From: Mytilinidion resinicola
Lineage: Eukaryota; Ascomycota; Dothideomycetes; Mytilinidiales; Mytilinidiaceae
NCBI RefSeq assembly: GCF_010093595.1
Contig: NW_022985446.1
Coordinates: forward strand, 124,001 to 188,000
Direction: 5' to 3'
DNA: 64,000 bases
Positions 18,777 to 23,288 of the stretch are shown piece by piece. The translations under genes were made by a program, and so were the position numbers. Positions within the stretch are counted from its first letter, which is position 1; every line of letters begins with the position of its first letter. A model generated the notes under the pieces. It had not been told where the DNA came from, ran no database searches, and worked only from the letters and a program-made list of their open reading frames with translations.

Positions 18777-18792
18777 AAAAAAATTGCAAAAA
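18777..18792 (-). terminator. RNA polymerase III terminators of the tRNA
   Basis: On the minus strand a run of five T (18788-18792) and then seven T (18777-18783) follow the tRNA end by 8 and 17 bases. This is the usual pol III stop signal and argues that the whole interrupted gene is one pol III unit. Confidence 0.75.
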
Positions 18793-18800
18793 GATAATCG

Positions 18801-18925
18801 CATTCCGCGTGGGGCTCGAACTAATACATCATTAGTACGCGGGCATGATTATTCGCAGCAAGGTAAAACATACCCCACAGCCTCCAGATTAGAAGTCTGG
18901 CGCGCTACCATTGCGCCAGCGGAAC
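18801..18925 (-). tRNA. tRNA-Arg(TCT) interrupted in the T arm by a GT-AG intron
   Basis: The 5' part is 18925-18874 and the 3' part 18820-18801. Joined, they give a full cloverleaf of 72 nt. Acceptor GTTCCGC pairs with GCGGAAT (G1-T72 wobble); discriminator G. D stem GCGC/GCGC with AATGGTA loop. Anticodon stem CCAGA/TCTGG with loop CTTCTAA, anticodon TCT. Variable AGGCT. T stem GTGGG/CCCAC with loop TTCGAGC. The A box (TGGCGCAATGGTAG) is intact. The usual nuclear tRNA intron site (37/38) is empty. A 53-nt insert instead sits exactly between positions 53 and 54. The B box is only formed with the insert's last AG. The gene is either functional through removal of this insert or a pseudogene. 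It decodes AGA. Confidence 0.85.
18821..18873 (-). other. 53-nt spliceosomal-type intron inside the tRNA gene
   Basis: The insert starts GTATGT, has a branch-point-like TACTAAT 20 bases before its 3' end, and ends TTAG. The same GTATGT donor is used in this window by eL31, the CHY/RING gene, ALG10 and the Zn2Cys6 gene. Its length matches local mRNA introns. Removing it exactly restores a seven-base T loop and a five-pair T stem. I see no obvious bulge-helix-bulge, the signal for the tRNA splicing endonuclease, although this was not folded by program. Confidence 0.7.
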
Positions 18926-21260
18926 TGGATCTGTAAATCGATGGATTTTGGGGTTGCCAGGAAATATTTAGTACATGTAGCATGTAATTTGGCAGGAGGA
19001 AAGCGATTTTGGTGGGGAAGCGGGCCTGGTGGGGGAAGTCGCACAAACAGTCACCTGGAATGAGTTTGGGGCCAATCAGAAGCAGAATACAGGGATTTGA
19101 GGCAGGCTTGGCGAGTTTGAAAGGTCATGGGTCATTTAGCGGCTGTCTGGGGAGCTAGTCGGATGAGGGAATGTATCCGCGTGTTTGCTGTGAATTGATG
19201 GGTGCATGCAGGACCGTTCTACCGGCACGTTAGCTTATTCACATGCTCCAGGAATATTTCATAGCGCTGGACACTTTATGAGTCTCGTATATTGTATCCT
19301 TTATATCTGGTCGCCTAAACTTCACATTTTCTAGAACATCATTCACGACTTTTATCATAGCCCGAAGTCATGCCTTCGGTCATATACACCAGCGACTATT
19401 CCAATTCATATTATTGAGCCTGATTCAACCCTTAGATAGAACGACGATGGATTGCTATGCGTTTCCATTTTGAAAGGACTGACAGTAAGAGTCACATGGA
19501 CTTCATACAGGCTACAAGATGAACACTGAAGCAGCCGAGGGCTTGTTCGTCGAAGTACACTTCTCTAGTTTCAAAGAGAGTGCAGAAACGACGTTGACAA
19601 AATGGCTTCGGTGTCATAGTACTGAATGTGACTTTACGGAAGACATTATGCAAAGGTTGATTACTCTTGAGCGTCTCCTTGATATCGAATGGAAGAAAAA
19701 AAAACTGGAAGCATGATCTGTTGGGACTCAACGGAGTTACTACGAAGATTTGTTATAGATGTGTTACGAGAGTGATCTTTTAAACGAGAAGGCTTTACGA
19801 TTGAACATTGAGAAATGGTAGTTCAAAAGAGTGTGGTGGTCAGAGAAGCTTCAGACAAGTGATGAAAATCAAGGAAAGGAACATCCCGAAGTGTGGGAGT
19901 GCGTATAGTATTTGAAGGAGTACCCTCGTTGTCACATGCCCTGTCTATATTCGTTTGCTCTTGTAGTCGTTATTGCTGTTACTGGTCGATACACCTGCGG
20001 CGAGTTCTGCAGCAGAGAATTGAGACAGATGTCGTCTCACTCTTACTCATACTCGTATCTCAATACCTGCATTCCAATTCGCATACTAGCCCTGAATGCT
20101 TTGTGTACTATGCGGTAAGAATATCATATACCTCTTAACTGATATTTGACACTAAGTAGGTACTTCATCTTCAAATTCTGGGCGGGATGTAACACGCCAT
20201 ACGGAGTGAACGGACGGTAGCTGTACTCCGACTAGGACGGCATGTATACTTCTTCATTCTGCCGACGGAAAATATTCGCAATGCCGAACGGAGTCTCTGC
20301 CATAAGCCCCAAGTCCAGGCTACCGGATGCTACTGTGACCAGGATGGATCGTAGCATCGCGCCAGGCGTGGACCGTAACATCCTCCGCCCTATTCAGATG
20401 AGTATATCGTTCCACGGACTCAATTAACCATGCTATTTGTTGAGCTGGCAGATGTTGTCTCGACCGTTCCGTACGTACGGCATCAGGCAGAAAACCCACA
20501 TATATGGCACGCATACGGTGCTAATCTGCATCCTCGCTCATAACACTACTTCAAAACACCGTAGTCGAGCGTCCGATTTCGTCCACTGGGGAGGTCGCCG
20601 TCCCATCTACCGGTCAGTAATTTCGCCCTGCTGCCCTACGGGCGGGCAGCTAAGCTGGGCGGGGGTATATCACCGGCGGAGAGGAAAGCTGGGCCTCCAA
20701 CGCAGCCCTCGGATTGGCGGATTATTATCTTCCACGGGCTGCTTGGAGTGAGAGCATAGCGGCGGCGCTGGATAAATGTTGCCCGACACAGCGCAAGGAT
20801 GCTTGAGGCAATCCGTTCCGCGACCCCAGGCGTTGCCGAGTCCTGCTCGCGCCATGAGAGGCCCCTCCGCTCGGCAGCAGACGACGACCCATACGAGGAA
20901 CAAAAGTGACCTGCGGGTTTCGCGGAGCTTTCGAGTTTCCGTATGCGCAAGCAATGGTACTACCTTGCTATCGGCGACCCGACCTGACCCACGTTGATCC
21001 CATCCTCTCCCTTCCACTCTATATCACCACTTCAAAACTGCATTGCAGCCTCCACCGACTACCCGGCACGCCTGAATTGTCGCAAGTACTGGCCCACAGG
21101 AGTCCTTTCTCCCCCAAAACCACGGAGATGCGAGAGACGGCCCTGAAAGCTTGCCCGCTGAACTCCTCCCGTCGCATCTTTGTAGAGCTGCAGCTCCGCA
21201 TCAACGGCTTCAACACCTACGGCTAGCTTCGCGCTGTCCCACCAGGCAAAACACATTCTT
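18926..21260. other. Intergenic, no supported gene
   Basis: This lies between the tRNA and the quinate-repressor-like gene. A 65-codon frame at 19519-19716 (MNTEAAEGLFVEV...) has no family and no splice partners. Frames at 20437-21226 overlap on both strands in GC-rich DNA and look like chance. The last 250 bases are probably the leader of the next gene. Confidence 0.4.
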
Positions 21261-23288
21261 ATGGCAACGATGATACATCCCGACAATATCCCCCCCTCTA
21301 CCCTGAAGGGTAACGGCTTCGTCGCCATCCAGGAGCTCTCCAATGGAGCCCCCAACTGGACCAAGCCAGCATTGTTGATTATATATGGAGATGGGCATGA
21401 GAACATTGTTAGGAGCATTGCAGATGTTCTAGGCCAGCCTTGGGAACTGGCGGCATCGTTGGCAGAAATAAAAGCAGGATTCGAAGGAACTATCTACGGG
21501 ATATCGAACATATTTGTCGGCTCCCAGCTGCAGGACTGGGATGGATCAAGGTTGGCCATAAATGCGCACTGTGTGGATGGAGGCCAAGCGCTGGACGAGA
21601 ACCTTACATCGCGTTGTGCTTACGAGTACCTCTACACAGAGTCACCGTTCTTTCAGAGAGACATAGCCCGATTTCTTGGTTTTGTTCTCGGCCAAATCAG
21701 CCATCACCGCGACTTGACGAAGAAAGCGCGGACTACGCAAATATCCACTACGTTTCCTGACGTCCATGCTGCGCTGCCGAATCTGGATATTCTTTCCGTT
21801 GGAGCCGACGTTGTGGAATTGAGAGTGGATCTCCTTAAGGAGCCTCTCCCAGACGGATCATTCAGTCGAATGCCGAGTCTGAAGTACGTTGGCGAGCAAC
21901 TAATGCTTCTACGGCAGCGCACTGAGCTCCCTATCATCTACACCACAAGATGTACCAAAGAGAATGGCCGCTTCCCTATGGACGATCCGAACCTTTTCTA
22001 CGAATACCTTTCAAGGGCAATCAAGTGGGGGTGCGAGTACATTGACGTTGAACTATGGCTACCAGAAGATATCAGGCGACGCTTAGCGGAACACAAAGGG
22101 AACAGCAAGATTATCTCGGCTTTCCATGACTTTTCCGGGACCTTCAAATGGACATCGCCGGAAGCGCAAGAGCTCTTTAGGAGAGGTGCTGTGTACGGCG
22201 ATGTAGTGAAGATGATTGCTTTCGTCAATTCCATCCAGGAAAACTACGAGTTAGAATACTTTCGCTCCACCATACAGTCGACATTCCCCCATCCTCCCCT
22301 GGCTGGAGTCAACATGGGGCCTATGGGGCAGCTATCCCGGGCATTGAACAAGGTGTTTACACCAATTACGCATCCTCTACTCCCCATGATTGCTGCGCCC
22401 GGCCAGCTTAGTGCTGCAGAAATCAACATGGCTCTCCATAGCATGGGCCAAATGCCCAAAGTAGACATATACGGCATTGGCAGCTATCGGTCGACGACAC
22501 AGGCCATATTTTTCGAGAAATGCTTCAATGAGTTGAGCTTACCGCATCAGTTCATGTTTATAGAGAGGGCGCCTAAGGGCTCGATAGACGCCATCATCCG
22601 GCGACCGAATTTCGGTGGAGCCTACATTAACCCTCCTCTTGCAGCAGCCTCGGCTCCATACCTACCCTCGCTCACGACCGCTGCTAGGACGATTGGACAG
22701 GTCGACGTGGTTACACTGCGCTTGGAGGGTGGTCGAACTACCTTTATAGGAGACAACGCGACATGGAAGGGCATCCGGGCAACACTGAGCCGCGATTTCG
22801 TTCCCTCGGCCTACAGCGGACAGGCAGCCTTGATACTGGCTAGTGCAGAGGCTGATGCCGCGGCAGCAATATTTGCATTGAAAAGCCTGGGCATCGGTCC
22901 GATATATACTATCGGTTTCAAGACGCATGGGCCCCTGAGCTCCGAGGTTGATCCAGTCCGATCTGTGGAAGACGTCAAGAGACTGCAGCAGCCCTTCGTC
23001 ATCATCTCTGCGTTGCCGGCAGAGAAATCCTTGCTGGTGGTTCCCCTGTTGAAGCACTATCGTGTCGACGGAAGGAGCCCTGGTAGTCTTGCAGGTAAGG
23101 TGTTTGTGGACCTCGCCAACGGGCCAAGGAAAGGAGATCCACTTGTTATAGCGGCCTCGTCAGGATGGACGGCATACGGCATTGCAGATGTGAGTGCTTG
23201 GACAACGGTGGAAACGCTCAGGTTGCTGGTAGGACAGAACGTGCCCTACGACTTTGTGCGTCTGGCATCTGGGAGAGGACTGTTTTGA
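21261..23288 (+). CDS. Quinate repressor-like protein (QutR/AROM-derived), 675 aa
   Basis: A single exon. The protein resembles the three C-terminal domains of the AROM pentafunctional enzyme, as in the quinate repressor QutR/QA-1S. Residues about 1-150 are a degenerate shikimate-kinase-like part in which the GxxGxGKS/T loop is replaced by IYGDGHENIV, so ATP binding is unlikely. Residues about 170-400 are a type I dehydroquinase-like domain (VVELRVDLL, SAFHDFSGT with the His, GDVVKMIAF with the Lys). Residues about 400-675 are shikimate-dehydrogenase-like (IYGIGSYRSTTQA, IIRRPNFGGAYINPP, VFVDLANGPRKGDP). Known repressors bind the activator QutA and silence quinate use. This one lacks about 200 N-terminal residues compared with Aspergillus QutR (recalled). 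A Zn2Cys6 factor follows 850 bp downstream; no quinate enzymes are in the window. Confidence 0.8.
   Translation: MATMIHPDNIPPSTLKGNGFVAIQELSNGAPNWTKPALLIIYGDGHENIVRSIADVLGQPWELAASLAEIKAGFEGTIYGISNIFVGSQLQDWDGSRLAINAHCVDGGQALDENLTSRCAYEYLYTESPFFQRDIARFLGFVLGQISHHRDLTKKARTTQISTTFPDVHAALPNLDILSVGADVVELRVDLLKEPLPDGSFSRMPSLKYVGEQLMLLRQRTELPIIYTTRCTKENGRFPMDDPNLFYEYLSRAIKWGCEYIDVELWLPEDIRRRLAEHKGNSKIISAFHDFSGTFKWTSPEAQELFRRGAVYGDVVKMIAFVNSIQENYELEYFRSTIQSTFPHPPLAGVNMGPMGQLSRALNKVFTPITHPLLPMIAAPGQLSAAEINMALHSMGQMPKVDIYGIGSYRSTTQAIFFEKCFNELSLPHQFMFIERAPKGSIDAIIRRPNFGGAYINPPLAAASAPYLPSLTTAARTIGQVDVVTLRLEGGRTTFIGDNATWKGIRATLSRDFVPSAYSGQAALILASAEADAAAAIFALKSLGIGPIYTIGFKTHGPLSSEVDPVRSVEDVKRLQQPFVIISALPAEKSLLVVPLLKHYRVDGRSPGSLAGKVFVDLANGPRKGDPLVIAASSGWTAYGIADVSAWTTVETLRLLVGQNVPYDFVRLASGRGLF

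Follow-up and report, generated by a model that had tools for sequence, protein, structure and literature searches.

Introns of nuclear tRNA genes are taught as the task of the tRNA splicing endonuclease alone. The U6 small nuclear RNA (snRNA) gene of Schizosaccharomyces pombe has a spliceosomal intron in an RNA polymerase III (pol III) transcript, which is removed by the spliceosome; pol III transcripts can therefore be spliced (PMC8917221, in excerpt). Here, a stretch of 64,000 nucleotides from the ascomycete Mytilinidion resinicola (assembly GCF_010093595.1, contig NW_022985446.1, positions 124,001 to 188,000 of the forward strand; hereafter the window) was analysed. It contains a tRNA-Arg(UCU) gene at 18801-18925 on the minus strand, which is split in the T arm by a 53-nt insert. 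The insert is a real feature and belongs to a genome-wide pattern. Judged from the sequence, the insert is very probably a spliceosomal intron of the U2 type, one of at least 19 in tRNA genes, and its host a functional nuclear gene, probably the sole one for this tRNA. Both S. pombe U6 and the genes found here carry mRNA-type introns in pol III genes, and a preliminary description of the locus had noted such U6 introns in some fungi. The host in S. pombe is an snRNA, while the hosts here are tRNA genes, many at once, and one U6 copy.

Spliceosomal introns also occur in non-coding RNA genes of ascomycete nuclear ribosomal DNA, going by the titles of works that PMC6652019 and PMC11889510 cite, but those hosts are pol I rRNA genes. 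Non-canonical tRNA introns, several per gene as here, are described for Cyanidioschyzon merolae, nucleomorphs and Crenarchaeota (PMC4090602 and PMC9602550, both in part). The archaeal and, seemingly, the C. merolae introns rest on a bulge-helix-bulge, whereas the introns described here have no complete motif of this kind. The T-arm introns of nucleomorphs can be 3 nt long; those here are 49–65 nt long and have a donor, a branch site and an acceptor. Canonical introns at positions 37/38 occur in the same genes, but they are shorter (median 18 nt), and the splice motifs are never found together in them. No precedent for spliceosomal introns in nuclear tRNA genes was found among the excerpts of top-ranked open-access PMC results, a search that leaves subscription literature mostly outside. 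The word stem "spliceosom" is absent from the reviews PMC4090602 and PMC4390854.

The preliminary description had read the locus as a tRNA-Arg(TCT) gene with a 53-nt insert between positions 53 and 54 that starts with GTATGT and ends with TTAG, and the sequence bears this out. Rfam RF00005 matched across the insert with 48.2 bits (E = 3.1e-7), and its alignment places the insert within the T arm. When 18925-18874 is placed directly before 18820-18801, a 72-nt tRNA results; its anticodon is TCT, and all pairs of the acceptor (7/7), T (5/5) and anticodon (5/5) stems form. The insert reads GTATGT...TACTAATGATGTATTAG. At its edges the register is ambiguous by one base, a G being assignable to either side; the GT..AG register was chosen because no other register fits a splice site. 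TACTAAT, which had been placed 20 bases before the intron end, in fact begins at 17 nt from it and has its branch A at 11 nt. The claims that the B box is completed by the intron's last AG and that T-run terminators follow downstream hold (Table 1). With an A box, a B box, a T5 terminator and paired stems, the locus has the parts of a nuclear tRNA gene. Folding prediction for the precursor leaves the T stem unformed, with the branch site paired to the acceptor in a short hairpin (18820-18836).

The whole genome (47.1 Mb, 44 contigs) was searched. The Rfam tRNA search, in which 63 of 1387 candidates were scored, listed 37 matches, 35 of them above the cut-off. A T-arm pattern gave 123 matches against 74 in a backwards control. 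Among the 100 listed, 46 stretches were fetched, corresponding to the 47 new matches that keep the G-C pair; matches without the pair were not fetched. Two further patterns were fetched for 36 of 36 and 36 of 43 matches, and five of the remaining seven are known loci. Another pattern (5 matches, 9 in the control) yielded Gln L072, three known genes and one non-tRNA. A motif of the initiator Met (iMet) anticodon arm had no match; the 37/38 intron of iMet L163 splits it. A DNA query for tRNA paralogs was too insensitive, as Ser(AGA) failed to recover Ser(GCT). Pooled over all searches, 57 tRNA genes were readable, and this inventory is a lower bound. The loci judged unclear (L034, L056, L096, L118 and L128) and multicopy tRNA-like families lie outside the count.

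Sixteen of the 57 readable tRNA genes hold 19 mRNA-type introns outside 37/38, located in the T arm, variable loop, D arm or anticodon arm (Table 1). Together with the intron of one U6 copy, 20 introns were compared. Their lengths are 49–65 nt. All 20 end in AG, and all contain YTRAY with the branch A 10–13 nt from the intron end, in agreement with U2-type branch and acceptor signals. As for the donor, 17 start with GT and one with GC, so that 18 of 20 have a U2-type start, as in the GTATGT of the window; the other two start with GA. Introns at 37/38 are present in 49 of the 57 readable genes, iMet L163 included, and range from 7 to 75 nt. Only 2 of these 49 have a G[TC] start, 5 an AG end and 3 the branch motif, and none has all three signals. 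The introns outside 37/38 and those at 37/38 are two distinct classes. With 37/38 included, up to three introns occur in one gene (Leu L037, Leu L090 and Ile L127). The preliminary reading of the Arg(UCU) insert as an mRNA-type intron is thus strongly supported, with like introns in 16 of 57 genes and one U6 copy and with empty sites in paralogs.

A strict motif was defined as G[TCA][AG]NG..YTRAY..AG, with the branch A 10–13 nt from the end, in intervals of 49–65 nt. It was passed by 17 of the 20 introns and by 0 of 40 introns at 37/38; the failures were Arg(CCG) (GTCAGT), Ala(TGC) (GTAATT) and U6 (GTACAC). Chance resemblance, an assembly error or self-splicing elements are extremely improbable explanations of these inserts. 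GT, CTAAT and AG are short motifs, and a single case would be weaker, but the background of the strict motif is 83 of 2,174,062 window intervals (3.8e-5). A group I or group II ribozyme, whose core takes hundreds of nucleotides, would not fit into 49–65 nt. The Arg(UCU) gene with its intron has a single occurrence in the genome and is therefore no recent repeat copy.

The signals were also compared with those of protein genes. A loose scan of the window for mRNA introns gave 69 matches against a shuffle mean of 68.1, which is no excess. Protein-gene introns were instead taken from candidates that join two open frames. These candidate introns appear to resemble those of the tRNA genes, for example in L045, L053 and L065, which we take from their sequence to be phosphoglycerate mutase-like, P450-like and DHHC-like genes. 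Avoidance of T runs in the 20 introns was not significant (T5 or longer, 0/20 against 0.57 expected; T4 or longer, 1/20 against 2.3 expected).

The C. merolae gene for tRNA-Ile(UAU) is interrupted by introns at 12/13, at 37/38 and at 53/54, and this last site is exactly that of the window intron (PMC9602550, in part). This precedent makes the test for a bulge-helix-bulge (two 3-nt bulges about a 4-bp helix at the junctions) matter. The inserts could be non-canonical introns of the same type, with a bulge-helix-bulge cut by the tRNA splicing endonuclease. The prevalence of 37/38 introns in this genome speaks for this type, and so does the window intron, whose pairs (central 3/4, inner 2/2 and outer 1/2) come nearest to a complete motif among the 20. 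Full central, inner and outer pairing is found in 0 of 20, however. Asp L105, the next nearest, has 3/4 central and 2/2 inner but 0/2 outer pairs, and the second intron of Ile L127 has 4/4 central pairs with no inner or outer pairs. A central helix of at least three pairs occurs in 3 of 20 introns (mean 1.65 of 4) compared with 17 of 49 at 37/38 (mean 2.10). The pair between exon -6 and intron -3, of the anticodon-intron type, is absent from the window intron; it is present in 8 of 20 introns, about chance (7.5 expected at equal base frequencies), compared with 39 of 49 at 37/38. Endonuclease cleavage also leaves the splice motifs in 20 of 20 unexplained, and we consider it very unlikely. A clear bulge-helix-bulge at both junctions had been named in the preliminary description as a sign of an endonuclease-type intron; the complete motif is absent, while a partial one is present in the window intron.

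Removal of the introns restores the host RNAs at the sequence level. In all 16 tRNAs, the acceptor (7/7) and T (5/5) stems are fully paired after removal. The anticodon stems have 5/5 pairs in 14 of 16 and 4/5 in L090 and L127. Three paralog sets, Gly, Asp and U6, provide empty sites. Gly(GCC) L019, which has no insert, and L100, with an insert GTAAGC..TACAAG, have identical mature sequences. Each carries its own 37/38 intron; L019 is therefore no copy of a mature tRNA. Asp L105 and L124 are likewise identical in their mature sequences, while their introns have diverged yet keep GTAAGC, TGCTAACGGATGTT and CAG; Asp L092 is the empty-site paralog of both. According to a loose pattern, the interrupted DNA keeps a readable A box in 14 of 16 genes and a readable B box in 16 of 16.

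The interrupted genes could also be pseudogenes, whose inserts are dead and which yield no tRNA. Eukaryotic tRNA genes with a short insertion in the D or T arm have usually been taken for such pseudogenes (PMC4090602, in excerpt). ARAGORN (bacterial mode) detected no tRNA in the window, and it also misses L025, L027, L032 and L035. The paired stems and the identical exons of the Asp genes with their differing introns argue against decay, and a common donor, branch site and acceptor would be unexpected in dead insertions. Moreover, eight anticodons (TCT, ACG, CCG, AGA, GCT, TGC, CGC and TCC) have only interrupted genes in the inventory; if the unclear L128 is left out, TAT joins them as the ninth. 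A lack of spliced RNA while another intact TCT gene is expressed had been named as the sign of a pseudogene; a gene query, Rfam and the joined 30-mer (up to 3 mismatches, 0 matches), all of them lower bounds, found no other Arg(UCU) gene. The share of AGA among arginine codons is 6/38, 7/73 and 0/17 in three frames of the window. Loss of function throughout these genes is very unlikely.

Several points weigh against a spliceosomal identity of the introns. The strict motif was fixed after the introns were known, and GT and AG guided the drawing of the intron boundaries, though these are constrained by the stems and by paralogs with an empty site; independent checks therefore matter. Both Ser introns (L032 and L035) begin with GAAAGT after GCAG, which is a consensus donor except for the A at +2, and would require unusual donor recognition. 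Ala(TGC) L025 requires the second AG of TTAGGAG. The A box is broken by the intron in L025 and L127. By itself, RNAfold failed to give a full cloverleaf for some joined tRNAs, among them L123, L105 and L205. As the inventory is a lower bound, it may have overlooked an intact TCT gene. A T-arm pattern with a 3' splice site gave 30 matches against 31 in the backwards control, without excess; it recovered three known T-arm introns, Gln L013 again and Ser(CGA) L044, while L056 was unclear. A search for 53/54 inserts gave 9 matches against 26 in the control, namely the window gene and eight without an upstream tRNA exon. T-arm introns of mRNA type are therefore few.

The GA start of the two Ser introns has a counterpart in animals. 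GA-AG introns of Eurytemora affinis and Oikopleura dioica have AG upstream and A downstream, and a U1 variant was suggested (PMC7072748, in part). The Ser introns (GCAG/GAAAGT) share this donor context, but the animal introns lie in protein genes and those here in fungal tRNA-Ser genes. With the alternative Ser donor GCAGGAAA/GTG, surplus bases would stay in the T arm, and it was therefore rejected.

The U6 copy at C1:2369760-2369910 (L083) has a 51-nt intron, GTACAC..CAACTAAC..ACTAG, next to the ACAGAGA box. The insert lies between ACAGAGAAG and ATTAGC, which are joined in the other 16 of 17 U6 copies. Intronless copies have a TATA motif in 14 of 15 cases and a T5 run in 13 of 15. As these copies look like genes, retrocopying was dropped as proof of U6 splicing.

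A spliceosomal route to the mature tRNA would run as follows. RNA polymerase III, directed by the internal A and B boxes, would transcribe the Arg(UCU) gene into a precursor that runs as far as the T run. The spliceosome would recognise GTATGT, TACTAAT and TTAG, the intron would leave as a lariat, and the T arm would be restored. Introns at 37/38, where also present, would be removed by the tRNA endonuclease and ligase. For the gain of the introns we infer reverse splicing or a similar insertion, reverse splicing being a possible origin. On these sequence features, the making of working tRNAs in M. resinicola probably needs the spliceosome.

Other observations concern the limits of the inventory and the repeats. 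Only two readable tRNA genes, Leu(AAG) L006 and Val(AAC) L134, have no intron at all. Elongator Met, Ser(UGA) and Pro(AGG or UGG) genes, some of them indispensable to a cell, were not found in this lower-bound inventory; they may be more heavily interrupted, or simply missed. L034 and L128 are tRNA-like, with Rfam scores of 33–36 and mismatched stems, and may be either pseudogenes or additional genes with interruptions. A multicopy tRNA-like family, TCCGGTGTGGTTTAGTTGG...CTCAGCGCCGGAC with variants (L179, L180, L191, L192, L193, L199 and L203), has acceptor, D and T parts and a long variable centre with no clear anticodon arm, and some of its members lie in clusters on C13 and C7. A multicopy pol III-like repeat with the B box GAGTTCGATTCTC (L173, L175, L181, L184, L185, L186, L195, L197, L200 and L202) has a TATA-like motif upstream and an A-box-like stretch, and is possibly a short interspersed element (SINE). 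A second repeat group (L111, L112 and L121) has TACTAACCAGCAGGAA plus the motif GGGTTCGAYTCCC. In the window, a 3-dehydroquinase-type protein at 21189-23285 has 92% identity to Lophium mytilinum and 84% to Lepidopterella palustris. The match puts the DNA within Dothideomycetes, close to Mytilinidiales, the order of Lophium; a lichen-forming fungus, first considered in view of the low number of tRNA genes, was rejected on this ground.

Table 1. Features of the tRNA-Arg(UCU) locus (window positions) and the tRNA genes with introns outside 37/38
Feature	Position	Strand	Introns outside 37/38	Basis
tRNA-Arg(UCU) gene	18801-18925	-	one, T arm, 53/54	
tRNA-Arg(UCU) exon 1, positions 1-53	18874..18925	-		Rfam RF00005 match; stems pair on joining
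mRNA-type intron (putative), 53 nt, between positions 53 and 54	18821..18873	-		sequence, signals
5' splice site GTATGT	18868..18873	-		sequence
Branch site TACTAAT, branch A 18832	18831..18837	-		sequence
3' splice site TTAG	18821..18824	-		sequence
tRNA-Arg(UCU) exon 2, positions 54-73	18801..18820	-		Rfam match
Anticodon TCT	18891..18893	-		Rfam alignment, stem pairing
A box TGGCGCAATGG, whole within exon 1	18908..18918	-		loose pattern
B box AGTTCGAGCC, its first AG being the intron 3' splice site	18813..18822	-		loose pattern
T5 run, likely pol III terminator	18788..18792	-		sequence
T7 run, back-up terminator	18777..18783	-		sequence
Arg(ACG) L027			T arm	Rfam matches and flanks
Ser(AGA) L032			T arm	Rfam matches and flanks
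Ser(GCT) L035			T arm	Rfam matches and flanks
Arg(CCG) L036			D loop	Rfam matches and flanks
Ala(TGC) L025			D arm	Rfam matches and flanks
Leu(AAG) L037			D loop and anticodon stem	Rfam matches and flanks
Leu(CAA) L090			two	T-arm pattern
Gly(GCC) L100			56 nt, within anticodon stem	T-arm pattern
Ala(CGC) L102			interrupted	T-arm pattern
Asp L105 and Asp L124			interrupted	T-arm pattern
Gly(TCC) L123			interrupted	T-arm pattern
Ile(UAU) L127			two	T-arm pattern
Cys L189 and Val(AAC) L205			interrupted	two further patterns

Given its nuclear genome, M. resinicola is likely to need the spliceosome for translation at the tRNA level. Pol III precursors of essential tRNAs would be processed by two unrelated splicing machineries, with up to three introns per gene, and structured RNA genes would have received new spliceosomal introns by precise insertion, mostly where the G..AG ends of the intron keep the promoter boxes readable. 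The Gly, Asp and U6 paralogs with empty sites point to candidate gains of introns by RNA genes. With their strict fold and lack of a reading frame, these genes would offer a clean setting for testing the birth of spliceosomal introns, reverse splicing included. If true, tRNA finders can miss genes interrupted like Arg(UCU). If the spliceosome removes these introns, the boundary that assigns tRNA introns to the endonuclease only would fall, and tRNA supply in this lineage would be tied to pre-mRNA splicing.
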